DNA from: an uncultured Rhodospirillales bacterium
GTDB taxonomy: Bacteria; Pseudomonadota; Alphaproteobacteria; Azospirillales; Azospirillaceae
Length of the DNA stretch: 64,000 nucleotides
Direction of reading: 5' to 3'
Assembly (NCBI GenBank): GCA_903920145.1
Contig: CAIXKV010000065.1
Span: forward strand, 1 to 64,000
The notes below the pieces were generated by a model. The model searched no databases. It was not told the DNA's origin and saw nothing but the letters and a program-made list of their open reading frames with translations. The translations under genes and the position numbers were made by a program. This document shows, in pieces, positions 1 to 15,952 of the stretch; position 1 is the stretch's first letter; each line of letters starts with the position of its first letter.

Positions 1-12
1 CTCCGCCGCGCT

Positions 13-3000
13 ATGCTCCCGCCGGAAAAACCACGCACCCATCTCGGCCCCCGTCAGTTAGTTGTGCCAGACAAGGACGTATCTACCACATCTGGGAACA
101 TCGGGGGAATCGTATTACCCAAAGGCGTCGCGATCCGACACGCTGGCTGCGTCAATATCGGGCTGGCCACATCCGAAATGGTGGGAGGCTTCCTGCCGGA
201 TGACCGGATTGCACTGGTCGCCATGCCCGGCTTCGATGCCTCCTTGTGGGAACTGGGGATGGCGCTTCTCAACGGCAACGCCGTTGTACCGATCTCCCAG
301 GATTTGCGGAATGATCCTTGGGCGCTGAAGCCCTTCTATCGGGATTTGGGTGTTACGGTGGCGTTTCACGCGCCATCCTACCTCCGGGTCAGCAAGACGG
401 TTCCGTTCGAGGGCCTGCGGGTTCTGATTGCTGGCGGCGAAGCGCCTAACCACGACGACGCCCGTCATCATGCCAATCCATTATCTTTTTTCAATGCCTA
501 TGGCCCGACCGAAACAACCATCATCGTTTCGTTGGGGCCGGTTGTGCCGACCTGCGGCGCCTCGACTCCCATTCCCGCCGGTCGGCCCGTACCCAACACC
601 CGCCTGACCTTTCGCCGCCCGGATGGCACGCCGGTACCGCCGGGCGTGGTCGGGGAGCTATGGATTTCTGGTATCGGCGTTGCCGACGGCTATCTCAACC
701 GCCCGGCCCTGACCGCCGAGCGGTTCGTCGACACGGATGGAAGCCATTTCTACCGCTCCGGCGACCTTGGCCGCTGGACCCCGGACGGCCAACTCGAGCT
801 GTCAGGCCGCGTGGACGATCAGGTTAAACTGAACGGTCAGCGCGTCGAACCCGCCGAAATTGAGCATGTACTGGCGTCTCATCCGGCCGTGGCCACCGCC
901 GCCGTGTTGGTCGACACCACCGCCACCAGCGGCGTTCGGGTGCTGCGTGGCTTCGTTCAATTGAACGAAGAGGCCAAGTCTCTATACGAAAAGGCCAGAC
1001 TCCCGGATTGGCGTGTGTATCTTGGCAATCGTCTGCCGGCGTTCATGGTGCCGGCCAGCGTCACCGTCGTTCCCGCCATTCCCCTGACACCCGCCGGCAA
1101 GATCGATCGCGCGGCCTTGCTGGCTGTGGTGGCTGCCGATGGCCCACAGGAAACCCGCGAGGCTCCCCAGGGCGAACTGGAAATCCGCATTGCCGCCTTG
1201 TGGGCCGAGGGCTTCGGTGTCGAGGTGTCCCGTCAGGACAATTTCTTTGCTCTTGGCGGCAACAGCCTGCTGGCCGTCACCCTGGCCCACCGTCTGTCGG
1301 CGGTGTTGGGGCTGCCGGTGCCGGCACGGGTGCTGTTCGGGGCTCCAACCCTAGCCGGCTTTGCCAGCAAGGTGGCCGGTCTGGCCCCGATTGACCTTTC
1401 GTTCCCCCCCGCCGAAAGCGATCTGGCCACCGAAGGCGAGCGCGAATTCCGAATCGCCGAAGCCGCCGGGTTAGAGACCCGTCACTTCAACATCCCTGTG
1501 CATCGTCTGGTTGAAGGCAAGCCGCCGCCGCCGGAACGCTGGACCGCCGCTTGGACCCAACTGGCGGCCCGTTATGAAAGTCTGCGGACCTATTTCGAAG
1601 AGGACGAATACGGGGTTCTGCGCCGCCGCGTTCTGCCGGATCTGACCGTAACGCTGACATTCACCACCTCACCCGACCGCAAATCCGCCCTAGCTGAAGC
1701 CCGTGTTCGCCAGGGAGAGCCCTTGACCATAGCCGTTCCGCCGTTATGGCGGGCCGGTTTGATCACGGTTGCGGACGGTTCCGCGCCGGTGTTCTGGATG
1801 GCCCTACATCACGCGGTGGGCGATGGCCAGTCGCTGGGCCTTCTGCTGGACGAGATGACAGCCCTACTCTTGGATCAACCGCTGTTACCGGCCCCCGTGG
1901 GTTGGAGCGCCCTTGCCGCGCGCGAGCATGCTTATTTGGCCGGTGCCGATGGCGCCGGAGACGCCCAGTACTGGCGCGACCGGCTCGCCGAACTGCCGGA
2001 TGATGCTTTCGAGGACTGGGCGCTTGATATCCCTCGGTCGTCAGCAACGCCAGCGGGAACCCATCGCTTTGAGCGGCTATTAGATGCCAACACCTCGGAG
2101 GTTTTAAAAGGATTGGCCCGTCGTCACCATGTCAGCATGCACGCCCTCATGGTGGCTATGCTGTCCATGGAAATCCGGCGACGGACTGGCCGCACGGTTT
2201 TCACCGTCGGGACCGCCGCTTCGACCCGAGAAACCGCCGAAGACGCCCGCGTGGTCGGCAGCGGAGCCAATATGCTGCCGCTGGCCATCCGCTTGGAAAC
2301 AGAGGACTCCTTTGCCAGCCTGTTGGTCACAGCCCAACGGGTGTTGGCCGGAGCGTTGCAGCACGCCCGCTATCCCTTTGCACGGATCTACCAGGAATTC
2401 CGCGCTCAACGGTCGTTGCCTCGACATCCGACCCGCTATCCGTTGTTCGACTTTGCCGTCACCGAAGTCCCGACGGTTCGGCCATCAACAGAAACGGCGC
2501 TGCGTTTGGTCCGTCCAGAAACGCCCAGCGAAGCGATCCTGCACGAGTATGTCGACCGCTCGCCAGCCCAGGATCTGGTGCTGATCCATGAAGAAATGAG
2601 CGATGGCCGCCTGTTGCTTCAATGGCATGTCAACGCCGCAGTTTATGGCCAAGAAACCGGCCTGACTTGGTTCCACGCCCTCGCCGGCTGGATGCGCTGG
2701 CTGGCCGAAGATGCAGATCGAGCGCCGACCCTACCGCCGCCTCTCCTGCCCGAAGAAGAGGCGCTGTTGACGGCCTGGGAACAGGGTGAAACCATCGTTC
2801 GCCCGCCCCTGCGCTTTCACGAGCTGTTCGAACAACGGCTTGATCGCTCTGATGCCGGTCAGGGCGACCGGCCAGCGGTCCTGACCGATGGCGGCGTCAT
2901 CACATGGCGGGCGCTCGAAGAGGCGGCCAATGTCATCGCCCATGCTCTGCTAGAGCGTGGCGTCGGGCGGGGCCGAACGGTGGCAGTGTTGACCGGTCGC

Positions 3001-6000
3001 TCGCCGGACCTGCCAGCAGCGCTGCTCGGTATCTGGAAAGCCGGTGCAATCTATCTGCCTCTGGCGGCGGATCTACCGCCCGAGCGGCAGACTTTTATGA
3101 TCCGCGATAGCGGCGCCGCGCATCTGTTGGTGTTGAACGGGCTAGCGGTACCCGAAGCCCTGAGCCATGCGGTGCCGACGGTGCTGCGACCCGAGGCGCT
3201 GGACGACGAGGCTCGCCAATCCGGCATCCACCGCCCGAACCGTCCGGGAGACCCCGACGATATCGCCTATAGCCTCTATACGTCAGGATCCACCGGCCAA
3301 CCCAAAGGAGTCCTGATCAGCCACGCGAGCTTTGTCAATGTGGTCCTGGGAGCGGGAGAAAGACTGGGCTTCACCGCCGATGACCGCTCACTGATGTTCG
3401 CCTCGCCGTCTTTCGATGTGTCGCTGTCCGATATCGGCATCCCGCTTGCCTTCGGTTCGACGCTCTGCTCCATCCCCTTCGATGTGTTGAGTACCCCCAG
3501 CCGGTTCCTGTCATGCCTGCGCGACCTTAACGTCACGGTTGTCGACATCACGCCCACTTACTTAAGGCTGTTTGAAGGGGCCGAGCTTCCGAATGTGCGC
3601 GTCCTGATCACCGGAGGCGAGGCGCCGTTCCCATCGGATGTGGCGGTGTATGCGGCCCGGCATTCGTATTTCAACGCTTATGGTCCGACCGAAAACACCA
3701 TCACCAGTACCATGGGGCTCCTGTCTGCCGATGATGGCGGATTTCTGTCCGGTGGCCGCCCGATGCCCAACACCAGCGTCCAAATCCGGGATGCTGCCGG
3801 CAACCCGGTGCCGCCCGGCGTGGTGGGGGAAATTTGGCTGGGCGGAGCCGGTCTGGCCCAAGGCTACCTGAATCAGCCCGCATTGACCGAAGCCTGTTTC
3901 AGGGAAACCCCGACAGGGCGGCGTTATCGCTCTGGCGATCTCGGTCGCTGGCGGGCGGGCGGCGCACTGGAAATCGTCGGGCGCATCGACGAGCAGGTGA
4001 AGCTAAACGGCATTCGCATCGAGCCGGGCGAGATTGAGCACGCCCTCTCCACCCATCCCAACGTGGCACAAACCGCCGTCATCACCGGGGGCGAAACCGG
4101 CAAAACCCAATACTTGTGGGCCTTCATCCGTCCGGCGGAACACCGGACAGCGCCGGTTGAATCCGATTGGCGGGCTTGGCTGGCGGATCGCCTGCCGTCC
4201 TACATGATCCCATCGACGGTGGTTTCTATTCCGACCATACCACTCACGGGGTCCGGCAAGGTGGACCGAGCGGCCCTGCGGGCACTGATGGCCAAGCAGC
4301 TTCGTTCCCCTTCGGGCGGCAGCGCACCCCAAGACGATTTGGAGCGCCAGATTGCCCGAACCTGGAGCCGTGTCCTGGGTCACGAGACGGTTCACCGCGA
4401 AGACAGTTTCTTTAGCCTGGGCGGGCATAGTCTGTTGGCCATCACCATGACGCAACGGCTGGAGGCGGCCTTGGGCCACCCGGTCCCAGCCCGCGAACTG
4501 TTCGCCGAACCGACATTGGAAGGCTTTACCCGACGGGTTCGCCAGCTTCAGAGCCCCGAAAACCGCTCTTCTACCACCATCGGAGCCACATCGGATCGCG
4601 CCACCGAAGGACAGGCGGAATTCTGGACCGCCGAAGCCTCCGACTTTGACACCCGTGGCTTCAATATCACACTCACCCTGTCCGTGCGGGGAACGATTCC
4701 GTCGGTGGACCGCTGGCACGCCGCCTGGGACCATTTGGTGATGCGGCATGACGCTTTGAGGACCGGATTCCACGAGGATGAAACCGGCAGGCTGCGCCGT
4801 GTCGTTCTCGAATGGGTGAGCAACCGCCTGGAGATACGGGAAGCCCCCGACTTGACAACGGCTCTGGCAGACATCTCGGAGCGCCAAACCGAGCCCTTCG
4901 CCATGGCAAACCCGCCCTTATGGCGAGCTGGTTTGACCCAGATCGCCGAAACCAGAATCGAAGGGGAGAAGACCGAGCCCGGAGAAACGGTGTTCTGGTT
5001 GTCCTTGCATCATTCGGTGGGGGACGGCCTATCGTTGGGGATTTTGCTGGGCGAACTCGCAGCGGGATTGTTAGGCCGGTCACTGCCGCCCCTGCTCGGC
5101 TCGTTCGACCGTTCGGCGGCACATGAAGAAATCTATTTGGCCGGTGATGCCTGCCGGGAAGACGCGGCATGGTGGGATCGGACGCTTTCCAGTCTGGCGC
5201 GGAGCACCGATGCTTTTGATGAGTGGCCGCTGGATTTCCCACGACCGGCAGGGCGGACAACAGATCACGGCAAAGGCAATCACCTGCTCCGCGCTCGCCT
5301 GGACAAGGCCACCACCGAGGGGCTGCGCGCTCTGGCCAGACGCAATGGCGCCAGTTTACACGCCGTGATCCTGACCTTGCTGGCGTTTGAGGTCGGGCGG
5401 CGCACAGGTCGGTCGGAGTTCCTGCTCGGCTCCACGGTTTCCACCCGTGAAACCGTCGCCGAGGCCGGTATTGTCGGCTATTACGTCAATATGCTGCCGA
5501 TCGTCTGCCAAATCCGGCGCAGTGACCCACTCGAACAGGCCGTGCGCGCGATGCAGCGCGCTCTGGGCGAAGGGCTCCGGCACAGCCGCTATCCGTTTTC
5601 GCGCATTTACCAAGACTTCCGGCGCAACCACCCCGGTTTGGTGCATCCGACCCGCTATCCTCTGTTTGATTTTTCGGTCACCGAGAATCCGCGCGTGGCG
5701 GTCGGGGCCGACGGCGGCCTGTGGTTCACGACTCCCGCCCCCTTGGTGGCTAGGCTCCCGGATGAAGCCGATGACGACGCCACGCACTATGAATTCCGTG
5801 CCACCGGGCCGACCCAGGATCTGGTGGTGGTCCACGAGAGCATGCCCGATGGCGGGTTGGTCTTGGCGCTGTACGTCAATGCCGCGCTCTATGAGGCAGA
5901 AACCTCGAAAGCTTGGCTTCGCTCGCTGGCGGGGTGGGCTCGGGTGGTGGCCGATGCCGAGCGCCAGCCCGATACGCCGCTGCCAGCCCTGCTGACCTGG

Positions 6001-9000
6001 GAAGGCGCGATCCTAGCCCGCTGGCAGCAGGCTGCAACCCGCCCCCTCCCCGCTCAGACCATCTCCGCGCTCTTCACCCGCCAAACCAACGAGCGTCCAG
6101 ACCGAGCGGCGCTGGTGACGGAACGCGGCGTGGTGACGTATGCCATGCTCGAGGAGCGAGCCAATACGATTGCCCATGCTTTGCTGGCGTGCGGCGTGGT
6201 CCAGGGTCAGCCGGTCGGCGTCCTGACCGAGCGTTCGGCGGCCCTGCCGGAAGCAGCCCTGGGGATCTGGAAGGCCGGAGCCTGCTATCTGCCTTTGGCC
6301 TACGACCTGCCGGCGGAGCGTTTGGCTTACAGCGCCCGTGATGCCGGGGTGCGGGTGATGCTGGCCCTAGACGGACTGGAGCCGCCGCCGGCTCTGTCCG
6401 AAATCGGTTGCACCCTGCTACGGCCAGAGCTGTTACCCCCTCGCGAGCCCCCGCTCACCGAGCCCGCACCGGCGCCCTCCGATCCCGCTTGCATTCTCTA
6501 TACCTCCGGCTCCACCGGCACCCCCAAAGGGGTTGTGCTGCATCACCAGGGAATCATGAATCTGGCCGTGGGCGTCAGCGAGATGTTGGGTGTTCATCCT
6601 GGTGACCGGGTTTTGTTGATGGCCTCCCCGTCCTTTGATTTGTGGCTCTCGGATCTGGTGATGACCTGGAGAGTCGGGGGGGCGCTGGTTCCGGTGCGGC
6701 GCGAAGAGATGGATGATATTGCCGGCCTTCGGGCCAAACTGGTCCGTCTGGGCGTGACCTGCGTGTCCCTGTCTCCATCCTATCTCCGCCTGTTTGAACA
6801 GGCAGAGCTGCCGGGCGTCCGGGTGTTGATGACCGTGGGAGAGCCGCCCCACATCGCCGACGCCCTGCATTACGCAGCCCGTCTTGCTTACTTCAACGGC
6901 TACGGCCCCACCGAAAACACTGCCGCAACCGCCATCGGCAGGATTGCCCCTGGTGCCCAACGCATCACCGCCGGTCGACCGCTGCCCAACAGTACCGCCC
7001 ATATCCTGGACCGGGACGGCCTGCCGGTGCCGCCGGGTGCCGTCGGTCAGCTCTGGATTGGGGGACTGGGACTGGCCACCGGGTATCTCAACCGGCCCGA
7101 CCTGACCACCGCCGCGTTCGTGGAGACTCCAAACGGGCGGCTGTACCGATCGGGCGATCTGGTCCGTTGGACGCCCGAAGGCGAATTGGAAGTCCTTGGT
7201 CGTATCGATACCCAGGTCAAACTGCGCGGCCAACGCATCGAATTAAGCGAAATCGAACACGAGTTGGAGCAGTATCCAGAAGTGCAGCAGGCGGTGGCCC
7301 TAGTGGACACGCAGGCCGACGGGAGTCAAACGCTCTGGGCCTTTGTTAGTCTCGGCGCCGGAGCCGTCGAGCCCGCAGCCGCAGATTGGCATGCCCGTCT
7401 AGCCGCCCGGCTTCCGTCCTACATGGTGCCAGCGGCGGTGATCCGGGTTCCAGCCATCCCGGTCATGATCTCGGGCAAGGTGGACCGGGCACAGCTCTTG
7501 CGGACTTTGCCCGGTTCGTCCCAGCCCAACACCGATGTTGCCCTAGAGAAAACCCGCACGCCGCCCCGCACGCCGGCAGAAAAACGGATCGCTGCTCTCT
7601 GGGCCGAACTGTTCGATCGGCCTTCCGTCAGCCGCGAGGATAATTTCTTTGAACTGGGAGGCGACAGTCTCCGGGTAATCGCCATGGTCAGCCGCCTTCG
7701 CCGGGATTTTAGTTGCAAAATCAATGATTTATATGAGAATCCAGTCCTAGCCGACTTCGCCCGCGTGTGCCATTCCCGTTCGGACCACATGCGGGCGCTG
7801 ATTCGCTCGGCGCGCAGTCATTGGCAAGCCTACCGCGACGACCTGACGGCCTATGACGCCCAACGTGCCGCTGCCTTGGAAGAGAGCCAAAACCGTTACG
7901 CCAGCCGCATCCGGCGGGATCTGGCGCATGATTTTGGCCCACGCCGCACCTATGGCCGGGTGCTGTTGACCGGGAGCACCGGCTATCTTGGCAGTTATTT
8001 GGTCCGCGCGCTTTTGGCCGAGCCTCATTCGATCGGGCCTGATCCGACCAGGCCCGATCGGATCGTGACGGTACTGGTTCGGGGCAGCGACGATGCGGTC
8101 GCTCGGAACCGGCTGGAACAGGTGTTGTGCGGCTATTTCGGCGCCGAAGAGGGCACAGCCCTGGTGCAGGACTCCCGATTGGAGGTGCTGGCCGGAGATC
8201 TCCGCCGTGACGATCTGGGGCTGCCGGTCAGCACGGTTGATCGGCTGGCCCAAACGATCCAGGCGGTCTTTCACTGTGCCGCCAAGGTCGATCATTTCGG
8301 CCATTACAGCGACTTCCACGCCGACAATGTGGCCGCCACCCGGCGGTTGCTGGCCTTGGCGGCCCGAGGGCCGGAACCGGCGGATTTTCATTTTGTGTCC
8401 ACCCTGTCGGTGGCTGGCAGGGCTCCCGACCAGGGGTTCCGCCTGTTTACCGAATTCGATCCGGTGCCCGAGACGCTGGATGAAAACTACTATGTCCGCA
8501 CCAAACAAGAGGCCGAACGGCTGGTGGTGGCAGCCCGCAGCGAGTTGGCCAACGCCTCGATCCATCGCGTCGGCAATATCATGTTTGCCACCGAAGGCCA
8601 GGCGTTGCAGCGCAACCTGAAGGACAACGCCTTTTTCCGACAACTGGCTGCCTTTATCCGGCTGGGCGCCGTCCCCGACGACCTGCATCTCTGGCCCTGC
8701 CACGTCAATCTAGCAGCCCGCGCGGTGGTGGTCCTGGCGGAATCCCGCGCTCTCGTCAACGACACACACCACATCGAGCATGCCCGACAAAGCACGGTGG
8801 CTGACTTCATCACCACCGGCGCCGGCCTAGAGCAGGTCCACGCGACCTCTTTCGGGGCGTTCCTTGATCGGCTGTTGGCGGCAGTAGACGAACCCGAAAT
8901 GGAAGCGGCTTTGACCGGAACGATGGAGACGTTCGGGCTATACAGCGGCTTGTCACCGCAGGGGCGGACGCGACGGTTGGATGTTGTCACCGATCGAACC

Positions 9001-9096
9001 CAGGCGCTGTTAAGCCGGCTGGGGGTGTTGTGGCCGACTCTGCCGAGAACCGGACAAACGCTGATGCTACAGGCCGCTGCGCGGTTCTTTTCATGA
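13..9096 (+). CDS. Nonribosomal peptide synthetase, A-PCP-C-A-PCP-C-A-PCP-reductase (5' end probably outside window)
   Basis: Multimodular NRPS that activates, tethers and condenses at least three amino acids and ends in an NAD(P)H-dependent thioester reductase, so the peptide should leave as an aldehyde or alcohol. Residues are numbered from the ATG at 13. A1 spans about 20-370 (NAYGPTE near 161, YRSGDLGRW near 248, PLTPAGKIDR near 357). PCP1 has Ser418 in LGGNS. C1 has HHAVGDG at 599-605. A2 has TSGSTGQPKGV from 1090. PCP2 has Ser1473, C2 has HHSVGDG from 1666, A3 has TSGSTGTPKGV from 2164, and PCP3 has Ser2552. The reductase has TGSTGYLG from 2653 and a Tyr2827-x3-Lys2831 SDR pair. No epimerase or thioesterase domain is present. 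The frame is open to base 1, so the ATG at 13 is probably internal. The A1 P-loop is abnormal (TSGNIGG, then PKGV after an insertion). The substrates are not known. Confidence 0.95.
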   Translation: MLPPEKPRTHLGPRQLVVPDKDVSTTSGNIGGIVLPKGVAIRHAGCVNIGLATSEMVGGFLPDDRIALVAMPGFDASLWELGMALLNGNAVVPISQDLRNDPWALKPFYRDLGVTVAFHAPSYLRVSKTVPFEGLRVLIAGGEAPNHDDARHHANPLSFFNAYGPTETTIIVSLGPVVPTCGASTPIPAGRPVPNTRLTFRRPDGTPVPPGVVGELWISGIGVADGYLNRPALTAERFVDTDGSHFYRSGDLGRWTPDGQLELSGRVDDQVKLNGQRVEPAEIEHVLASHPAVATAAVLVDTTATSGVRVLRGFVQLNEEAKSLYEKARLPDWRVYLGNRLPAFMVPASVTVVPAIPLTPAGKIDRAALLAVVAADGPQETREAPQGELEIRIAALWAEGFGVEVSRQDNFFALGGNSLLAVTLAHRLSAVLGLPVPARVLFGAPTLAGFASKVAGLAPIDLSFPPAESDLATEGEREFRIAEAAGLETRHFNIPVHRLVEGKPPPPERWTAAWTQLAARYESLRTYFEEDEYGVLRRRVLPDLTVTLTFTTSPDRKSALAEARVRQGEPLTIAVPPLWRAGLITVADGSAPVFWMALHHAVGDGQSLGLLLDEMTALLLDQPLLPAPVGWSALAAREHAYLAGADGAGDAQYWRDRLAELPDDAFEDWALDIPRSSATPAGTHRFERLLDANTSEVLKGLARRHHVSMHALMVAMLSMEIRRRTGRTVFTVGTAASTRETAEDARVVGSGANMLPLAIRLETEDSFASLLVTAQRVLAGALQHARYPFARIYQEFRAQRSLPRHPTRYPLFDFAVTEVPTVRPSTETALRLVRPETPSEAILHEYVDRSPAQDLVLIHEEMSDGRLLLQWHVNAAVYGQETGLTWFHALAGWMRWLAEDADRAPTLPPPLLPEEEALLTAWEQGETIVRPPLRFHELFEQRLDRSDAGQGDRPAVLTDGGVITWRALEEAANVIAHALLERGVGRGRTVAVLTGRSPDLPAALLGIWKAGAIYLPLAADLPPERQTFMIRDSGAAHLLVLNGLAVPEALSHAVPTVLRPEALDDEARQSGIHRPNRPGDPDDIAYSLYTSGSTGQPKGVLISHASFVNVVLGAGERLGFTADDRSLMFASPSFDVSLSDIGIPLAFGSTLCSIPFDVLSTPSRFLSCLRDLNVTVVDITPTYLRLFEGAELPNVRVLITGGEAPFPSDVAVYAARHSYFNAYGPTENTITSTMGLLSADDGGFLSGGRPMPNTSVQIRDAAGNPVPPGVVGEIWLGGAGLAQGYLNQPALTEACFRETPTGRRYRSGDLGRWRAGGALEIVGRIDEQVKLNGIRIEPGEIEHALSTHPNVAQTAVITGGETGKTQYLWAFIRPAEHRTAPVESDWRAWLADRLPSYMIPSTVVSIPTIPLTGSGKVDRAALRALMAKQLRSPSGGSAPQDDLERQIARTWSRVLGHETVHREDSFFSLGGHSLLAITMTQRLEAALGHPVPARELFAEPTLEGFTRRVRQLQSPENRSSTTIGATSDRATEGQAEFWTAEASDFDTRGFNITLTLSVRGTIPSVDRWHAAWDHLVMRHDALRTGFHEDETGRLRRVVLEWVSNRLEIREAPDLTTALADISERQTEPFAMANPPLWRAGLTQIAETRIEGEKTEPGETVFWLSLHHSVGDGLSLGILLGELAAGLLGRSLPPLLGSFDRSAAHEEIYLAGDACREDAAWWDRTLSSLARSTDAFDEWPLDFPRPAGRTTDHGKGNHLLRARLDKATTEGLRALARRNGASLHAVILTLLAFEVGRRTGRSEFLLGSTVSTRETVAEAGIVGYYVNMLPIVCQIRRSDPLEQAVRAMQRALGEGLRHSRYPFSRIYQDFRRNHPGLVHPTRYPLFDFSVTENPRVAVGADGGLWFTTPAPLVARLPDEADDDATHYEFRATGPTQDLVVVHESMPDGGLVLALYVNAALYEAETSKAWLRSLAGWARVVADAERQPDTPLPALLTWEGAILARWQQAATRPLPAQTISALFTRQTNERPDRAALVTERGVVTYAMLEERANTIAHALLACGVVQGQPVGVLTERSAALPEAALGIWKAGACYLPLAYDLPAERLAYSARDAGVRVMLALDGLEPPPALSEIGCTLLRPELLPPREPPLTEPAPAPSDPACILYTSGSTGTPKGVVLHHQGIMNLAVGVSEMLGVHPGDRVLLMASPSFDLWLSDLVMTWRVGGALVPVRREEMDDIAGLRAKLVRLGVTCVSLSPSYLRLFEQAELPGVRVLMTVGEPPHIADALHYAARLAYFNGYGPTENTAATAIGRIAPGAQRITAGRPLPNSTAHILDRDGLPVPPGAVGQLWIGGLGLATGYLNRPDLTTAAFVETPNGRLYRSGDLVRWTPEGELEVLGRIDTQVKLRGQRIELSEIEHELEQYPEVQQAVALVDTQADGSQTLWAFVSLGAGAVEPAAADWHARLAARLPSYMVPAAVIRVPAIPVMISGKVDRAQLLRTLPGSSQPNTDVALEKTRTPPRTPAEKRIAALWAELFDRPSVSREDNFFELGGDSLRVIAMVSRLRRDFSCKINDLYENPVLADFARVCHSRSDHMRALIRSARSHWQAYRDDLTAYDAQRAAALEESQNRYASRIRRDLAHDFGPRRTYGRVLLTGSTGYLGSYLVRALLAEPHSIGPDPTRPDRIVTVLVRGSDDAVARNRLEQVLCGYFGAEEGTALVQDSRLEVLAGDLRRDDLGLPVSTVDRLAQTIQAVFHCAAKVDHFGHYSDFHADNVAATRRLLALAARGPEPADFHFVSTLSVAGRAPDQGFRLFTEFDPVPETLDENYYVRTKQEAERLVVAARSELANASIHRVGNIMFATEGQALQRNLKDNAFFRQLAAFIRLGAVPDDLHLWPCHVNLAARAVVVLAESRALVNDTHHIEHARQSTVADFITTGAGLEQVHATSFGAFLDRLLAAVDEPEMEAALTGTMETFGLYSGLSPQGRTRRLDVVTDRTQALLSRLGVLWPTLPRTGQTLMLQAAARFFS

Positions 9097-9140
9097 TCAG
9101 GCACGCCCGGCCCATCGACCAACGCTTAAGAGAGACGACG

Positions 9141-10142
9141 ATGAAGCACGTTCTGGATTTAGGCTACCGTGCCGCCGAATTCTCCATGCAGGCCATCCGA
9201 GACGAGGAGATTACGGCGATCCCGGCTGTTCTGGCCCACTGGTACGGACCGGGGGCCGATCCAGCTTCACTGGATCCCCATGACGATGAAGCCGGCTTGC
9301 GGGCCGCCCTAGAACGGGTAGCGCCCGGTCTGGCCGCCCTCGGGCACATTCTCCGCGACCGGCTCGAAGCCGAGTGCAGCGGCCTGCTCATCCCCAGCCT
9401 GGGAATGGCGGATCGCCCCCTGTCAACCCGTCGCGGCGTCCTGTTGGCCCTTGGTCTGTTCATCGGCAGCCCGACCGCAACCGATAAAATCGACCGCCGG
9501 ATGCTCTGGGACATCAAGGTTTGCACCAGCGGCTTGGTTTCGACCTTCTCACAACATGCCTATGAAGCCGATTTTCATACCGATACCCAATATTATCCGA
9601 ACCCCGAGCGTTATTTGATGCTGTATTGCGTTCGCCCGGCGGCATGCGGGGGTGGGGTTTCCACCTTCCGGGATGTCCGCTGCATCGAACGGGGATTGTC
9701 ACGAACCGAGGCCGGCCGTTGGGCACTGGCGCTGCTCTCGAGCTGCGAACTGCCGTTCCGCATTCCCGCCGTTTTCACGAAGACGGGATCGCCCGACACG
9801 GTGGAAGTAACCTTTGCCCGTATCTTCGGCAGCAGGCCACGCATTCGCTTTCGAACCGATACCCTACGGATGGGCCTTCAAGCCTTCCCCGCGTCTGAAA
9901 CGCCGGACATCCGCCGGGCGCTAGCCCTTCTTCAAGCCGAACTGGACGACGAAAGCTCGATCCTGAAAACCGTTCTTCCGGCGGATTCCTTGCTGGTGGT
10001 CAACAATCACGAGGCACTGCACGGTCGCTCGGCTTTCACCGACCCCGAGCGGCATATGCTGCGGCTCCGCATCACCGATGGGCTGCCCCAGGATCCGGCA
10101 CGGGTCGTTTGCCCTTCTGTTGCCAATCCCGCCGCCTCATGA
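9141..10142 (+). CDS. TauD/TfdA-like Fe(II)/2-oxoglutarate-dependent dioxygenase
   Basis: Probable non-heme iron oxygenase of 333 residues that hydroxylates an amino acid, either free or bound to the NRPS; the tailoring role is inferred from position. The facial triad is visible: HTD at 146-148 (His146, Asp148) and the distal His294 in NNHEALHGRSAF, followed by an arginine-rich RHMLRLRI segment expected to bind 2-oxoglutarate. This order is typical of the TauD/clavaminate synthase superfamily, which includes SyrP-like NRPS tailoring enzymes. Two starts are possible. An ATG at 9093 overlaps the NRPS stop as ATGA, and the ATG at 9141 has an AAGAGAG ribosome site just upstream. I chose 9141 because the extra 16 residues look unconserved. 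Its 3' end overlaps the next gene by ATGA. Confidence 0.82.
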   Translation: MKHVLDLGYRAAEFSMQAIRDEEITAIPAVLAHWYGPGADPASLDPHDDEAGLRAALERVAPGLAALGHILRDRLEAECSGLLIPSLGMADRPLSTRRGVLLALGLFIGSPTATDKIDRRMLWDIKVCTSGLVSTFSQHAYEADFHTDTQYYPNPERYLMLYCVRPAACGGGVSTFRDVRCIERGLSRTEAGRWALALLSSCELPFRIPAVFTKTGSPDTVEVTFARIFGSRPRIRFRTDTLRMGLQAFPASETPDIRRALALLQAELDDESSILKTVLPADSLLVVNNHEALHGRSAFTDPERHMLRLRITDGLPQDPARVVCPSVANPAAS

Positions 10143-11788
10143 ACCTGATCCGCCTGTTTGGCCGTCTTGACCCGGTCTCGATCCGCCGCTTGTTGCTCAG
10201 TGCCACGGTCTCGGCCCTGGCTAGCACCGCCGTATTGGCCATTATCAACGCTGCCGCGCAAGAGATTGCCACCGAAAAGAAGGATTCCGTCAATCTGGCG
10301 CTGGCGGCGGTGTTTGTCGTCTGTGTGATGATCTATTGGGTCTCGGAAAGTCGGATGGTGGCGTGGATGGCCGCCGACGTGGAAGAAGCCATCGATGGCT
10401 TACGCATGACTTTGCTGGACCGTTTGCGTAAGGCTGATCTGCGCAAGCTGGAATGTTTTGGTCAGACCTCTCTTTACGAAAGCATCACCCAAAGCTGTCA
10501 GGTCATTTCCCAGAACTCACAGTTCTTGGCGGTGACATTGCATTCGGCAATCTTGACCGTGCTGATTCTTGTCTACATCGCCTCGGTGTCGATGCTGGCT
10601 TTTGCGCTGATCGGAGTGCTGCTGGGGGTTGGAACGGTCGCTTATGTCAAGCTGGGCCAAGCCCTCGATGCCCGACAGAACCAACTGTCCGCCGAAGAAG
10701 CACAGATGTTCGAGAGCGTATCCGATTTATTCGACGGTTTTAAAGAACAGCGATTGAACAGCGCCCGCAGCAACGATTTAAACGAGACCTTTGCCGCCGT
10801 CTCCGTGGCCACCAATCAGGCTTCCAACACCGTCCATATGCATTCGTGGCAACAGTTTGTATTCGGTGAAACCGCCTTTAATCTGATGTTGGGCGTCGTG
10901 GTGTTTGTTGTTCCGGCGTATTCCCAGGCGTTTGCTGGCGATTTGGTCAAAATTGCCGCCGCTGTGCTGTTTCTGGAAGCTCCGGTTTTCGCCCTGATGC
11001 AATCCCTGGCCATCATGCGTGCCGCTGAAGCTGCTGCCGGACGGATGCTCGATCTCGAAGCGCCATTGACGGCGCTAGCCGAAGCCGGCAGCGACGGGCG
11101 GGGTTGCCCCGTACCGTCCGATTTCTCTGAACTCGTCTTGGCCGGGGTGGAATTCGCCTTTCCCGCCCCGGAAGGAGAATCACCCTTTGTCGTCGGTCCC
11201 TTTGATCTGACCATCCGTCGAGGCGAGGTGGTTTTCGTGACCGGCGGCAACGGTTCAGGCAAATCAACCTTTATCAAGCTGCTGACCGGCCTGTATCGCC
11301 CGATACGCGGGACTCTGACCGTGGATGGCGTGGTGATTGGGTCGGAACGGCTGGCGGCCTATCGCGAGCAGATGGCAACCGTCTTTGCCGATTTCCACTT
11401 GTTCGCCCGTCTCTACGGCATGGATCCGCCCGATCCACAGGAAGCCGATGCTCTGATGCGGCGCGTGGAGATGAACCGCATAACCGCGTTGGTGGGGGAC
11501 CGCTTTGAACGCAACGATCTATCCACAGGTCAGCGCAAACGGCTGGCGCTGGTGAGCGCGCTGCTGGAGAAAAAGCCGATTTTGATCCTGGACGAATGGG
11601 CCGCCGATCAGGATCCGCATTTCCGCTTCACATTCTACCGTGAAATTCTGCCGTACCTGAAGAGCTGTGGGCTCACCATCATCGCCGTAACCCATGATGA
11701 CCGTTACATCGACGTGGCAGATCGTCGTCTGCACATGAAGGAAGGGCGCTTGATCGAGTTACCACCCGTGGTAGAGGCTCCGATATGA
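10139..11788 (+). CDS. PvdE/SyrD-type peptide export ABC transporter, first copy
   Basis: Half-transporter of 549 residues: about six N-terminal membrane helices (roughly 15-320) fused to an ATPase domain. The Walker A GGNGSGKST begins at 369, the signature LSTGQRKRLALV at 461, and the Walker B is followed by DEWAADQDPHFR near 485. That last string and the variant signature (STGQ rather than SGGQ) are characteristic of the cyclic-peptide/siderophore-precursor exporters PvdE and SyrD. The start at 10139 forms ATGA with the preceding stop, and the 3' end forms ATGA with the second transporter, so the genes are translationally coupled. Most likely it exports the NRPS product or a precursor from cytoplasm to periplasm. 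A siderophore is possible, but no iron-uptake gene is visible. Confidence 0.88.
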   Translation: MNLIRLFGRLDPVSIRRLLLSATVSALASTAVLAIINAAAQEIATEKKDSVNLALAAVFVVCVMIYWVSESRMVAWMAADVEEAIDGLRMTLLDRLRKADLRKLECFGQTSLYESITQSCQVISQNSQFLAVTLHSAILTVLILVYIASVSMLAFALIGVLLGVGTVAYVKLGQALDARQNQLSAEEAQMFESVSDLFDGFKEQRLNSARSNDLNETFAAVSVATNQASNTVHMHSWQQFVFGETAFNLMLGVVVFVVPAYSQAFAGDLVKIAAAVLFLEAPVFALMQSLAIMRAAEAAAGRMLDLEAPLTALAEAGSDGRGCPVPSDFSELVLAGVEFAFPAPEGESPFVVGPFDLTIRRGEVVFVTGGNGSGKSTFIKLLTGLYRPIRGTLTVDGVVIGSERLAAYREQMATVFADFHLFARLYGMDPPDPQEADALMRRVEMNRITALVGDRFERNDLSTGQRKRLALVSALLEKKPILILDEWAADQDPHFRFTFYREILPYLKSCGLTIIAVTHDDRYIDVADRRLHMKEGRLIELPPVVEAPI

Positions 11789-13416
11789 GACTCTGGCATC
11801 TGATCCAACGCGAGGTTCCCGAGCATCTGCGAACCATGATGCTGATGAATGTCTTGGCTGCCGTCGCCATGGCGGCTCTGCTGTGGATCGTGGATCTGGC
11901 CTCTAAGGCTGCAGCGGAAGGAAATGTCAGTCCTCGACTGGTCTTGATGTTCGTGATCGCCACCACATTGATTGCGGTGACTCACAATTATGTGCTCACC
12001 ACGTCATCTTTTGACGCCGAGCGGATGATTCTCAATATGCGTAGGCGCCTGTTCGACTTGGCACGGCGCAGCGACTTGTTAACGGTGGAACGCATCGGAC
12101 GGGCCGCCCTGCATACCGTGCTGATCCAAAACACCCAGGCACTGGCCCGGATTCTGCCGCTGTTGGCGATCGGCGCACAGCAGGCCGTGATGCTGGTCTT
12201 TGTCGGCGGCTATCTGGCCTGGCTCTCGCCGCCGGCTTTTCTGATTGCGTTTGGCTTCGGCGGCATTGCAGTGATGGTGCGGATGGGTCGGGCGGTCTCG
12301 CTACGCCGCATGCTGCGCAAAGTGGGAGACGCCGAATCCCGTGTCTTCAACGGCCTGACCGACCTGTTGCAGGGCTTCAAAGAAGTTCGGATGGAGCGCC
12401 GCCGCGCCGATGGCGTGCTGCATGAACTGGCCGAAGCCTCAACCGTCGCACGCACCGCCAACAGCATGATGAAGACTCAATGGGGCTATGATTTTGCACT
12501 GATCGAGTCTCTCTTCTTTGCGTTGATCGGCCTTATGGTGTTCGTCGTACCGCTGTTCGCCACCGGCTATTATGAAGTGGTGGTCCCGGCAACCACAGCC
12601 GCTCTGTTCGTGGTGGGGCCGATTGCCACGGTGTCCTATGTCGCTCCGATGATGACCCAAGCTGAAATGGCGTTGGCCAGCCTTGAGGAGATGGAACAGA
12701 AACTGCGAGCCCCCGCCCTGTCTGCTGCACCAGAAGTCGGAAGCGAGCCGCCGTCATCCATCGCCCTGAAGGATGCCGTGTTCGCCTATCCCGGCCCTGA
12801 CGACCAGCCGGTGTTCTCGGTTGGACCGTTGTCGGCCCTCTTCCGGGCCGGCGAGATCACGTTCATTACAGGCGGGAACGGCTCGGGCAAATCGACCATG
12901 CTGCGCTTGCTGACGGGCTTGGTTCCGCTGGAAGGCGGTGCTCTGCTGGTTGACGGCATCCCGGTGGCAACCGAGCGCATGCAAGCCTATCGCGATCAGA
13001 TTTCAGCGATTTTTTCTGACCATCACCTGTCTCGCCGGCTTTATGGCCTATCGCATGTCGACCCAGCCCGCGTTCGCCGGCTGCTGGAACAGTTGGAAAT
13101 GCAGGACAAGGTCAGTGTGCGAAACGGCGCCTTCAGCACAGTCACTCTCTCCACCGGCCAACGCAAACGCTTGGCGCTGGTGGTGGCCTTGCTGGAGGAC
13201 AAGCCGGTGATGGTCCTGGATGAATGGGCTGCCGACCAGGATCCGCACTTTCGGCAGGTTTTTTATGAAACTCTACTGCCCGAGATTCGGGCCCGGAACC
13301 GGATTGTCATTTGCGTGACTCACGACGACCGCTGGTTTGATCGTGCCGACCGGATCTACCACCTCAACGAAGGCCGCATCGATCTGACTCGAGAACGGCA
13401 GAAGGAGGAACTGTGA
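11785..13416 (+). CDS. PvdE/SyrD-type peptide export ABC transporter, second copy
   Basis: Second half-transporter of 543 residues, paralogous to its upstream neighbour, with the same membrane-domain then ATPase layout. Walker A GGNGSGKST starts at 363; the LSTGQRKRLALVVALLEDKP signature region and the DEWAADQDPHFRQVFYE Walker B region follow. Both copies keep Walker A lysine, signature and Walker B acidic residues, so both look catalytically competent. Two adjacent half-transporters may form a heterodimer, or two homodimers for different steps; PvdE-type proteins are usually encoded once per cluster. It is the last gene of the NRPS operon and is followed by an AT-rich gap. Confidence 0.87.
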   Translation: MRLWHLIQREVPEHLRTMMLMNVLAAVAMAALLWIVDLASKAAAEGNVSPRLVLMFVIATTLIAVTHNYVLTTSSFDAERMILNMRRRLFDLARRSDLLTVERIGRAALHTVLIQNTQALARILPLLAIGAQQAVMLVFVGGYLAWLSPPAFLIAFGFGGIAVMVRMGRAVSLRRMLRKVGDAESRVFNGLTDLLQGFKEVRMERRRADGVLHELAEASTVARTANSMMKTQWGYDFALIESLFFALIGLMVFVVPLFATGYYEVVVPATTAALFVVGPIATVSYVAPMMTQAEMALASLEEMEQKLRAPALSAAPEVGSEPPSSIALKDAVFAYPGPDDQPVFSVGPLSALFRAGEITFITGGNGSGKSTMLRLLTGLVPLEGGALLVDGIPVATERMQAYRDQISAIFSDHHLSRRLYGLSHVDPARVRRLLEQLEMQDKVSVRNGAFSTVTLSTGQRKRLALVVALLEDKPVMVLDEWAADQDPHFRQVFYETLLPEIRARNRIVICVTHDDRWFDRADRIYHLNEGRIDLTRERQKEEL

Positions 13417-13727
13417 CCCACGCATCGTTTACAACGCGGGTGGCCTTTCGTAACAGGTTTATCTTCACAGAAACCGCTATTACATGCCAATGTATTCTTA
13501 TATAAATGTTTCAAATCATTAAGAATGGAAGGCCGATATCATTTTTGACGTGACCTATTCCGATAAAAATGCGATCTTATTTTACGGATATAGCTGTTAC
13601 GACTTTATTTATTTGGTCTTAAGAGGATTGCCCCAGCCGAAGCTGACGGCAACCTCATCATGATCGAACATGGCGGCTGGCCGATCGGCAGGCCGTACTC
13701 ATGACCCCTCGCTTGGAGCCCAATCCC
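13417..13727. other. AT-rich intergenic gap after the NRPS operon
   Basis: About 310 bases with no convincing gene. The stretch from roughly 13450 to 13620 is much richer in A and T than either side. It may hold the end of the NRPS transcript and the promoter of the following DUF697 gene, but I cannot assign a convincing -35/-10 pair or a terminator. It marks a compositional boundary between the peptide cluster and the next operon. Confidence 0.5.
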
Positions 13728-14435
13728 ATGGCCACGAAGCCCTCCTCTCGTACTGGCAACGAAACCCCAGACAACCATGATGCCGCCCCCACCGCTCCTG
13801 AAGCCGTCGCGGGAACGCCCACCACCGACGCCACGACTGACGGCCTCCACATCGCCGAGACCGTGGTGAGTCCCCACACCGCCGAAACGGCGGCAAGCGA
13901 CAGTCCGACCGCTATCGCCCCAGCCGAGATCGCCGAGGAACGGGCGCGGCACGCTGCCACCATCATTCGCAACCATGTTCTCCTGGCCGCTGCGTCCGGT
14001 GTCATCCCCGTCAATTATCTTGATGCGGTTGCCCTGGCAGGCGTGCAGATCCGCATGTTGAACGAGTTGGCGAAGCTGCACCACCAAGAGTTCCGCGCCG
14101 ATATCGGCAAGTCGCTGATCGGAACCCTGCTGGCAACCGTAACGCCGACCTCGCTGGCGGGCGGGCTGGTTGGGTCTTATGTCCTGCGCAATAGCCTGTA
14201 TGCCCTGCCGGTGATCGGCCCCTTGGCACGAATCATCACCGAGCCGTCCCTCAACGGCGCCTTTACCTATGCGCTGGGCGCAACCTTTGATCGTCACTTT
14301 GCTTCGGGTGGGACACTCCTGACCTTCGATCCCGAGACGACGAAAGTCTATTTCCGCACAAAATACGATGAAGCTCGCAGTTACTTCAAAAAGAACCCGA
14401 CCGCTGAAACGGTTCCTGCCGTCGCTGCCGCCTGA
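13728..14435 (+). CDS. DUF697-family membrane-associated protein
   Basis: Predicted 235-residue protein. Residues about 1-80 form a low-complexity Thr/Ala/Glu-rich segment. The rest, from EERARHAATIIRNHVLL through GVIPVNYLDAVALAGVQIRML, matches the DUF697 pattern (His-Ala-Ala-rich helix, then a G-x-I-P-x-x-x-x-D turn and hydrophobic helices), known from YcjF-like and GTPase-associated membrane proteins. Two or three hydrophobic helices are visible. I place the start at 13728, where TTGGAG lies nine bases upstream; an in-frame ATG at 13701 is the alternative. It leads a small operon with a 66-residue membrane protein and an SPFH protein. The biochemical function is unknown. Confidence 0.7.
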   Translation: MATKPSSRTGNETPDNHDAAPTAPEAVAGTPTTDATTDGLHIAETVVSPHTAETAASDSPTAIAPAEIAEERARHAATIIRNHVLLAAASGVIPVNYLDAVALAGVQIRMLNELAKLHHQEFRADIGKSLIGTLLATVTPTSLAGGLVGSYVLRNSLYALPVIGPLARIITEPSLNGAFTYALGATFDRHFASGGTLLTFDPETTKVYFRTKYDEARSYFKKNPTAETVPAVAAA

Positions 14436-14512: not shown

Positions 14513-14713
14513 ATGCCCTCTGTTATCATCCTTCTTTACCTGACCGCGTGTGCGGTCTGTGGTTTCATGGGACGCAACACCGCCTTCGGCTTCATGGGGC
14601 ACTTTTTGTTGTCCCTGTTCCTGACTCCGGTCTTGGATTTCGTCATCCAGGCGGTGGGGCGTCCAAGCACACGGTTGCTCGATAAATTCCTGTCACAGCA
14701 GAAGCGACTATGA
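14513..14713 (+). CDS. Small membrane protein, 66 residues
   Basis: Short hydrophobic protein with two predicted membrane helices (about 3-17 and 28-48) separated by a GRNTAFG turn, ending in a basic tail (QQKRL). The frame extends upstream to 14447, but the ATG at 14513 removes a non-hydrophobic leader and follows a purine-rich stretch. The 3' end overlaps the SPFH gene by ATGA, which supports it being a real coupled gene. The function is not recognised. Two-helix proteins of this sort beside SPFH genes may act as partners, but that is inference. Confidence 0.6.
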   Translation: MPSVIILLYLTACAVCGFMGRNTAFGFMGHFLLSLFLTPVLDFVIQAVGRPSTRLLDKFLSQQKRL

Positions 14714-15741
14714 CCATTGTTGATCACTCGTCCGAACCTTATTCTTGGTGGTATCGTGCACGGTTATGGGGAAATCGGCATGCTGTTTCTATCTATGCGC
14801 TGATTCTGACCCTTTTGCTGGGATTGATCGCGCTGGCCCCCTGGATGTTTATCGATGTGCCTGCGGGTCAGGCCGGGGTGTTGTGGTTGCGATTCGGAGG
14901 CGGAACCGTCACCACCCGCGCCTTGGGGGAGGGCATCCATTTCGTGGCACCTTGGAACCGGATCGTCCCGTATGATGTTCGTCTACACAACGAGACCAGA
15001 ACCTATGAGGCTCTCGTTAAAAGCGGCCTGCGGGTTGAGGTTGAAATTGCCGTGCGCTATCGTATCAATCCCCCGGCGGTCGGCCTGATCCACAAACTAG
15101 TCGGCAAGGATTATGCAGAAAAACTAGTCTATCCAGAAATCGCCAGTCTTGTTCTGCTCTTTGCTTCGCAATATACAGCGGAAGAATTTTACTCGATCGA
15201 CCGCAAGGTCATTCAAAATTACCTGCTAGAACATGCTCGCGAAAAATTCGATGCCCCGCCAAGCGACATGGCCAGCCTGCCGGTTAATTTTCGTCAAGAC
15301 GATGGCCGGGGCCGCATGACGATGATCCGCATCGAAAATGTGCTGGTCTCGCGCATCACGCTGCCGCCGCTGGTGCGTCAGGCCATCGAGAGGAAGATCG
15401 AACAACAGCAGATCATGGAAGAATACGACTTCCGCATCGCCCGCGAGGAAAAAGAGCGCGTGCGGAAACGAATCGAGGCGGAAGGCATCCGGGATTTCCA
15501 GAAGACCGTGGCCTATACGATCACCAACGAATATCTGCGCCTACGCGGTATCGAAGCCACCCGAGCCTTTGCCGACTCTCAGAATAGCAAAACCATTATT
15601 ATCGGTGGCCGCGATGGCTTGCCGGTGATCCTTAATACCGGCGATGAAGCCAAGCCTGCGGCTTCAGCAACCCCGACCCCGACCCCGGCTCCAACGCTCC
15701 CGACTCTGGCTCCGGAAACCTTGCCAAGCAAAGCCCCGTAG
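14710..15741 (+). CDS. SPFH/band-7 (prohibitin-like) membrane protein
   Basis: Predicted 343-residue protein with one N-terminal membrane helix (about 26-48), then an SPFH domain beginning VPAGQAGVLWLRFGG with the TRALGEGIHFVAPWNRIVPYDVR segment (about 50-280), a helical region rich in charged residues (IEQQQIMEEYDFRIAREEKE), and a Pro/Thr/Ala-rich tail after about 310. SPFH proteins form large ring or cage assemblies in membranes and often modulate proteases or membrane domains. It is translationally coupled to the small membrane gene upstream. The specific role here is unknown; an HflK/HflC-type protease link is possible but not shown. Confidence 0.85.
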   Translation: MTIVDHSSEPYSWWYRARLWGNRHAVSIYALILTLLLGLIALAPWMFIDVPAGQAGVLWLRFGGGTVTTRALGEGIHFVAPWNRIVPYDVRLHNETRTYEALVKSGLRVEVEIAVRYRINPPAVGLIHKLVGKDYAEKLVYPEIASLVLLFASQYTAEEFYSIDRKVIQNYLLEHAREKFDAPPSDMASLPVNFRQDDGRGRMTMIRIENVLVSRITLPPLVRQAIERKIEQQQIMEEYDFRIAREEKERVRKRIEAEGIRDFQKTVAYTITNEYLRLRGIEATRAFADSQNSKTIIIGGRDGLPVILNTGDEAKPAASATPTPTPAPTLPTLAPETLPSKAP

Positions 15742-15805: not shown

Positions 15806-15952
15806 ACCAACGGCCCTAGACAATGATCCGTGCCGTTGGTATCGGGCCGCGACGGCGGCCCTGCGTCCTCGTGGAGGCGAAGCCAAGGGCGCGGATGCGC
15901 CCGCCCGGCGTCTGAGGGCGCCGCAGACGTGTCAACGTCCAAGGCCATTGGT
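15806..15952. repeat. Structured palindromic intergenic element, copy 1
   Basis: A 147 bp element bounded by ACCAACGGCC (15806-15815) and its imperfect complement GGCCATTGGT (15943-15952). It contains several hairpins in series: ACCAACGGC/GCCGTTGGT (15806-15840), a GC-rich core around GGCCGCGACGGCGGCC, GGGCGCggatGCGCCC, and GTCTG/CAGAC. The two outer blocks are found almost base for base, inverted, at 29988-30147, while the GC-rich core differs. It lies between convergent genes (SPFH protein and chemoreceptor). It resembles a REP- or MITE-like dispersed element; the family name is unknown to me. Confidence 0.85.

Follow-up and report, generated by a model that had tools for sequence, protein, structure and literature searches.

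The 3' half of a putative five-module reductive-release NRPS operon of the Azospirillaceae, apparently split by an IS-like element

Closest described systems and layout of the locus

AusA (aureusimine) and other R-terminated nonribosomal peptide synthetases (NRPSs) carry a terminal NAD(P)H reductase (R) domain in place of a thioesterase. The AusA R domain gives an aldehyde and then a pyrazinone, and the R domain of MxaA is a four-electron one. AusA is a two-module line and is not known to have a dioxygenase or an exporter pair such as the one described here. The closest layout that we found is on plasmid ABSP7_p2 of Azospirillum brasilense Sp7 (AMK58_RS23740-RS23775; NZ_CP012916), with an NRPS ending in R, a TauD gene, two exporters, a DUF697 gene, a small membrane ORF, and an SPFH gene in this same order. 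The Sp7 NRPS is annotated without a product, and we know of no product of the cluster. It has four modules and is unbroken, whereas that of the genome studied here has five and is split. The Sp7 locus also differs in having a type II thioesterase between the exporters and DUF697 and no detected adjacent phosphopantetheinyl transferase (PPTase). NRPS loci of Thalassospira, which may be of the thalassospiramide type, have SPFH (51-54%) and DUF697 genes within ∼4 kb of the NRPS; the one examined ends in A-MT-PCP-TE, unlike the R of our locus, and may correspond to the published ttc cluster.

We examined a stretch of 64,000 nucleotides (here, the window) of an uncultured Rhodospirillales bacterium (GCA_903920145.1), which begins with the first base of contig C65 in a draft assembly of 269 contigs. 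In the protein of ORF 1-9096, Pfam finds three AMP-binding domains, two condensation domains, three carrier domains, and a single NAD_binding_4 (R) domain. Behind the resulting order, (A)-PCP-C-A-PCP-C-A-PCP-R, come a TauD-type dioxygenase and then two TIGR01194 half-exporters (Table 1), and the Pfam and TIGR01194 matches thus agree with the order given in an earlier note on this DNA. The repeated C-A-PCP units have all their phosphopantetheinylation serines and HHxxxDG motifs by motif reading, and the C-terminal R domain has an intact NAD(P)H motif (GSTGYLG), STL, and YxxxK, with the T/Y/K residues in place. The loss of essential PCP or R residues that the earlier note had considered is therefore not seen. 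ATGA overlaps at 9093, 10139, and 11785 form the starts of the TauD gene and of exporters 1 and 2; the note had reported those at the exporter junctions, and the NRPS/TauD and TauD/ABC junctions overlap as well as that between the two exporters. Because of these overlaps, all four genes look translationally coupled.

Both exporters have ABC ATPase domains (Pfam) and fuse a transmembrane domain with hydrophobic segments to a nucleotide-binding domain with Walker A, signature, and DE motifs. They resemble the SyrD/PvdE-type cyclic peptide exporters in scoring above the TIGR01194 cutoff and differ from them in standing in tandem and being linked to DUF697/SPFH genes. A PADLOC search gave no credible defense match, and its exporter matches look like generic ATPase matches.

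We give a probability of roughly 0.7 to the reading that the window holds the 3' half of a five-module reductive-release NRPS operon of an Azospirillaceae lineage, split here by an IS-like element, with the exporters and a membrane cassette belonging to the locus.

Table 1. Features of the window (positions in nucleotides).
Feature	Position	Strand	Evidence
Right end of multicopy mobile (IS-like) element; in-frame start of 5'-open ORF	1..114	+	Repeats and inverted termini
TTA, probable 3-bp target-site duplication (other copy at C137 junction)	115..117	.	Flank comparison
C-terminal part of A3 (Leu-like pocket DAWFIGAIIK)	115..1122	+	Begins where C137 half ends; A type same as A2
Carrier domain, module 3 (LGGNSL)	1183..1380, limits approximate	+	Domain and motif match
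Condensation domain, module 4 (HHAVGDG)	1477..2700	+	Domain and motif match
Adenylation domain A4 (pocket DVSDIGAITK)	2842..4260	+	Pfam, pocket alignment
Carrier domain, module 4 (LGGHSL)	4348..4536	+	Pfam, motif
Condensation domain, module 5 (HHSVGDG)	4603..5679, C-terminal part runs further	+	Domain and motif match
Adenylation domain A5 (pocket DLSSMVGAAK)	6046..7500, limits approximate	+	Pfam, pocket alignment
Carrier domain, module 5 (LGGDSL)	7591..7785, limits approximate	+	Pfam, motif
Terminal thioester reductase (R) domain: GSTGYLG, STL, Y-x3-K	7966..9093	+	Pfam, motifs, relatives with solved structures
TauD/clavaminate-synthase-like Fe(II)/2OG dioxygenase	9093..10142	+	Start overlaps NRPS stop (ATGA); Pfam, motifs, model
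Half-size ABC exporter 1, TIGR01194	10139..11788	+	289.7 bits vs cutoff 286.2
Half-size ABC exporter 2, TIGR01194	11785..13416	+	296.5 bits vs cutoff 286.2
DUF697 membrane protein	13701..14435	+	Conserved with operon
66-aa hydrophobic protein	14513..14713	+	58-71% identity to the counterparts in four relatives; overlaps SPFH gene at ATGA
SPFH/Band7 (prohibitin-like) protein	14710..15741	+	Conserved with operon

Modules, substrates, and release

ORF 1-9096 is a fragment that lacks the beginning of the NRPS; the first bases of the window, at the contig end, belong to a multicopy mobile element. Contig C137 reads A1-PCP-C-A2-PCP-C and then part of an A domain, which breaks off at its SGTTG core; the window takes up the domain from there. 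Because the two A3 halves are complementary and have their best match to the same A type, and because condensation domains occur in this genome only on C137 and C65, the most economical interpretation is a single five-module NRPS that an IS-like element interrupts in A3. The three modules noted earlier thus stand as described within the window, but the full line would have five, the others lying on C137. We infer that the two contigs are physically joined, although the assembly keeps them apart and we did not recover the element's interior.

An Sfp-type PPTase gene lies on C137 (L006:10873-11685), divergent from the NRPS and ∼0.2 kb from its start. The earlier note had seen neither a PPTase nor an MbtH gene; the window indeed has no PPTase and the whole genome no MbtH, but the PPTase is present beside the NRPS start. 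Thioesterase-family matches are weak across the genome, with one barely over the cutoff (26.9 versus 26.4 bits), and none is on C65 or C137. A gene for a phytochelatin-synthase family protein (L006:7439-8137) lies upstream of both the PPTase gene and the DUF4175 gene, with no evident link to the cluster.

Pocket codes were read by alignment to a GrsA core that returns its known code, DAWTIAAICK. A1 reads ILRLIAVGAK and A2 DAWFVGGIAK; those of A3 to A5 are in Table 1. At the position of GrsA Asp235, A1 has Ile instead of the Asp of amino-acid-activating A domains, as do the aligned A1 domains of Azospirillum (ILRLLAMGTK). Since this amine-binding Asp is absent, A1 would ancestrally have loaded an acid other than an alpha-amino acid, and since the domain is otherwise conserved at 62-66% with Azospirillum, it is probably a working starter domain for an acid lacking an alpha-amine. 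The pockets of A2 and A3 resemble Leu-type codes and are tentatively assigned to them. The two domains are 70% identical, and relative to Azospirillum one module has been added. For A4 and A5 we know of no matching code, and a literature search for codes of the A2, A4, and A5 types found nothing. Modules 2 and 3, as a duplicated pair, would then add Leu-like residues, and modules 4 and 5 one residue each.

The R domain (PF07993, 129 bits) is related to R domains with solved structures, including those of AusA and MxaA, and the protein falls well below the level of the AusA equivalog NF047350 of NCBIfam (950 versus 2500 bits). With this domain intact and terminal, the reductive release proposed earlier is well supported, and in the intact Azospirillum relatives the peptide is probably released as an aldehyde or alcohol. 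Release of the chain by the R domain, using NAD(P)H, would give an aldehyde that could be kept, reduced to an alcohol, or cyclized; both this final form and the peptide sequence are predictions from the domains. That the aldehyde is not kept, so that the product is an alcohol, a macrocyclic imine, or a pyrazinone and not an aldehyde protease inhibitor, is a serious possibility, if somewhat short of an even one. The relatives of the R domain include the four-electron MxaA as well as AusA, whereas a starter without a free alpha-amine makes a head-to-tail imine unlikely.

The 2OG dioxygenase would hydroxylate one residue or a precursor. The protein (PF02668, 64.3 bits) has the HxD...H iron site and the Arg for 2OG of Fe(II)/2OG enzymes, both invariant in 11 homologs, and its model (mean pLDDT, 68.5) is nearest to TtnM, clavaminate synthase, OrfP, VioC, and KDO1. 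Beta-hydroxylation, as suggested earlier, is possible. No R domain lies near the TauD relatives of Streptantibioticus, Piscinibacter, and two Azospirillum genomes, and so this TauD subfamily is wider than the operon.

Distribution of the operon and its membrane cassette

Among 82 Azospirillaceae genomes, a search with the TauD protein located the operon in 21, which belong to four genera, and we drew out its layout in 13 of the 20 relatives. The layout that the earlier note did not recognize is therefore that of a conserved family and not an oddity. Within the window's genus, TauD had no match in the remaining four genomes. The Azospirillum NRPS has four modules; in two genomes (G009 and G033) it is encoded by a single ORF of ∼4,200 aa. 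In a Niveispirillum-like genus (g11; L052 and L053, in G071 and G075), the homologous NRPS seems to pass from a C domain to a carrier with no A domain between. Literature searches of partial coverage found nothing on an Azospirillum NRPS with a reductase domain, and a broader one for Azospirillum NRPSs gave no title on this cluster; the operon apparently represents an uncharacterized family of reductive-release NRPSs.

The earlier note ended the locus at 13416, but the conserved part continues through DUF697, a 66-aa membrane ORF, and SPFH/Band7 to 15741. DUF697 and SPFH adjoin the NRPS operon in all 21 genomes, with DUF697 3.6-4.5 kb behind TauD. Close orthologs of the two occur in exactly the same 24 genomes, and the other 58 of the 82 have no close one. 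The three extra genomes, all Azospirillum, have similar exporters, a thioesterase, and the cassette behind a different NRPS; in G021, the only one of the three scanned with Pfam, this NRPS ends in an MT-containing A domain, PCP, and TE. Co-occurrence of cassette and operon has a Fisher P of ∼1e-16 among genomes that are related, and so the four genera and the switch of NRPS partner are the stronger arguments.

We also scanned public genomes with an SPFH alignment and considered the 80 best-scoring loci, which are not a random sample. A TIGR01194-like exporter gene adjoins the SPFH gene in 23 of them, from Alpha- and Betaproteobacteria, Desulfobacteraceae, Lentisphaerae, and Opitutaceae. We write "TIGR01194-like" because two of five such exporters checked were under the cutoff. 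Of the 41 DUF697-positive loci, 14 have NRPS A and C domains within 10 kb, versus 1 of the 39 others, with Bacteroidetes loci, a different lineage, accounting for much of this negative set.

The two half-transporters would export the peptide, perhaps as a heterodimer, and the cassette would serve them or protect the producer. We tentatively propose, at somewhat less than even odds, that DUF697, the 66-aa protein, and SPFH form a dedicated membrane platform for TIGR01194-type NRP exporters, in export or producer self-protection, which is reused behind unrelated NRPSs and has a simpler exporter-SPFH(-DUF697) form across several phyla. The predicted structure of DUF697 is of low confidence. Literature searches of the same partial coverage on DUF697 with NRPS, DUF697 with SPFH, SPFH with NRPS, TIGR01194 with Band7, and peptide-aldehyde self-resistance found nothing. 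It is unlikely that the three genes are instead bystanders of ancestral synteny, outside the system. The cassette follows a 0.28-kb gap, may be a separate transcription unit, and in Sp7 is preceded by the intervening thioesterase gene; against this, DUF697 and SPFH keep to the same 24 genomes across four genera, even where the NRPS partner has switched in three, and in other phyla relatives of SPFH lie next to similar exporters.

Many Azospirillum genomes have a second, distant set of DUF697-exporter-SPFH-exporter genes (L067, G009:C2:18001-38000; L091-L101); where examined, a stand-alone gene of the thioester-reductase-like kind and a solute-binding protein gene lie beside it. In another genome of the window's genus (L068, G002:C79), DUF697, an ABC exporter, and SPFH lie beside C39-peptidase ABC transporters with no NRPS in view, and there the set might be used for ribosomal peptides as well.

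That the cluster makes a metallophore such as a siderophore, with TauD making a hydroxylated ligand residue and the PvdE-like exporters secreting the product, is very improbable: the exporters are of the SyrD/PvdE type, and such exporters and a TauD enzyme occur in pyoverdine-type clusters, but Sp7 has no annotated TonB receptor or iron gene within ∼7 kb upstream or 20 kb downstream, and the pocket codes are unlike those for Asp or Orn.

Probable interruption in this genome and significance

In this strain the NRPS gene is split in A3, and the contig ends on either side carry the ends of a mobile element. Window bases 1-114 have identical copies close to the ends of C154 and C155, and the end of C11 carries a further copy of the final 138 bases of C137. 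The element termini on C65 and C137 are inverted repeats (TACGATTCCC / GGGAATCGTA). TTA flanks the element on both NRPS sides, and other copies are flanked by TTA or TAA. The element had no plasmid match, and its full end was found in no genome of the family (82 Azospirillaceae). An NRPS uninterrupted in the living strain, the element ends being assembly artifacts or an insertion in part of the population, would fit a draft of 269 contigs without the element interior, but it is very improbable, given matching inverted termini and TTA flanks that adjoin the NRPS on both sides and recur with TTA or TAA elsewhere.

One condensation domain on C137 (C2) holds two in-frame repeat inserts, which could already be impairing it. 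A dispersed palindromic repeat with a 16-base core, CCCGGCGTCTGAGGGC, has 529 copies in the 4.26 Mb of this genome (reversed control, 0), at 15904 (+) and 30021 (-) in the window and at 69, 6963, 9374, 10824, 17397, 18225, and 18348 in L006. It lies in frame within protein genes, twice in NRPS C2 and once in the DUF4175 gene, much like the in-frame insertions of Rickettsia palindromic elements.

Because the mobile element sits in A3 with a 3-bp target duplication, the interrupted line is probably inactive in this genome and would be intact only in relatives. Plant-associated Azospirillum strains, among them the model Sp7, carry the operon, which is directly testable there. As it is strictly linked to DUF697 and SPFH, these two membrane protein families, both poorly understood, may have a part in natural-product export or immunity.
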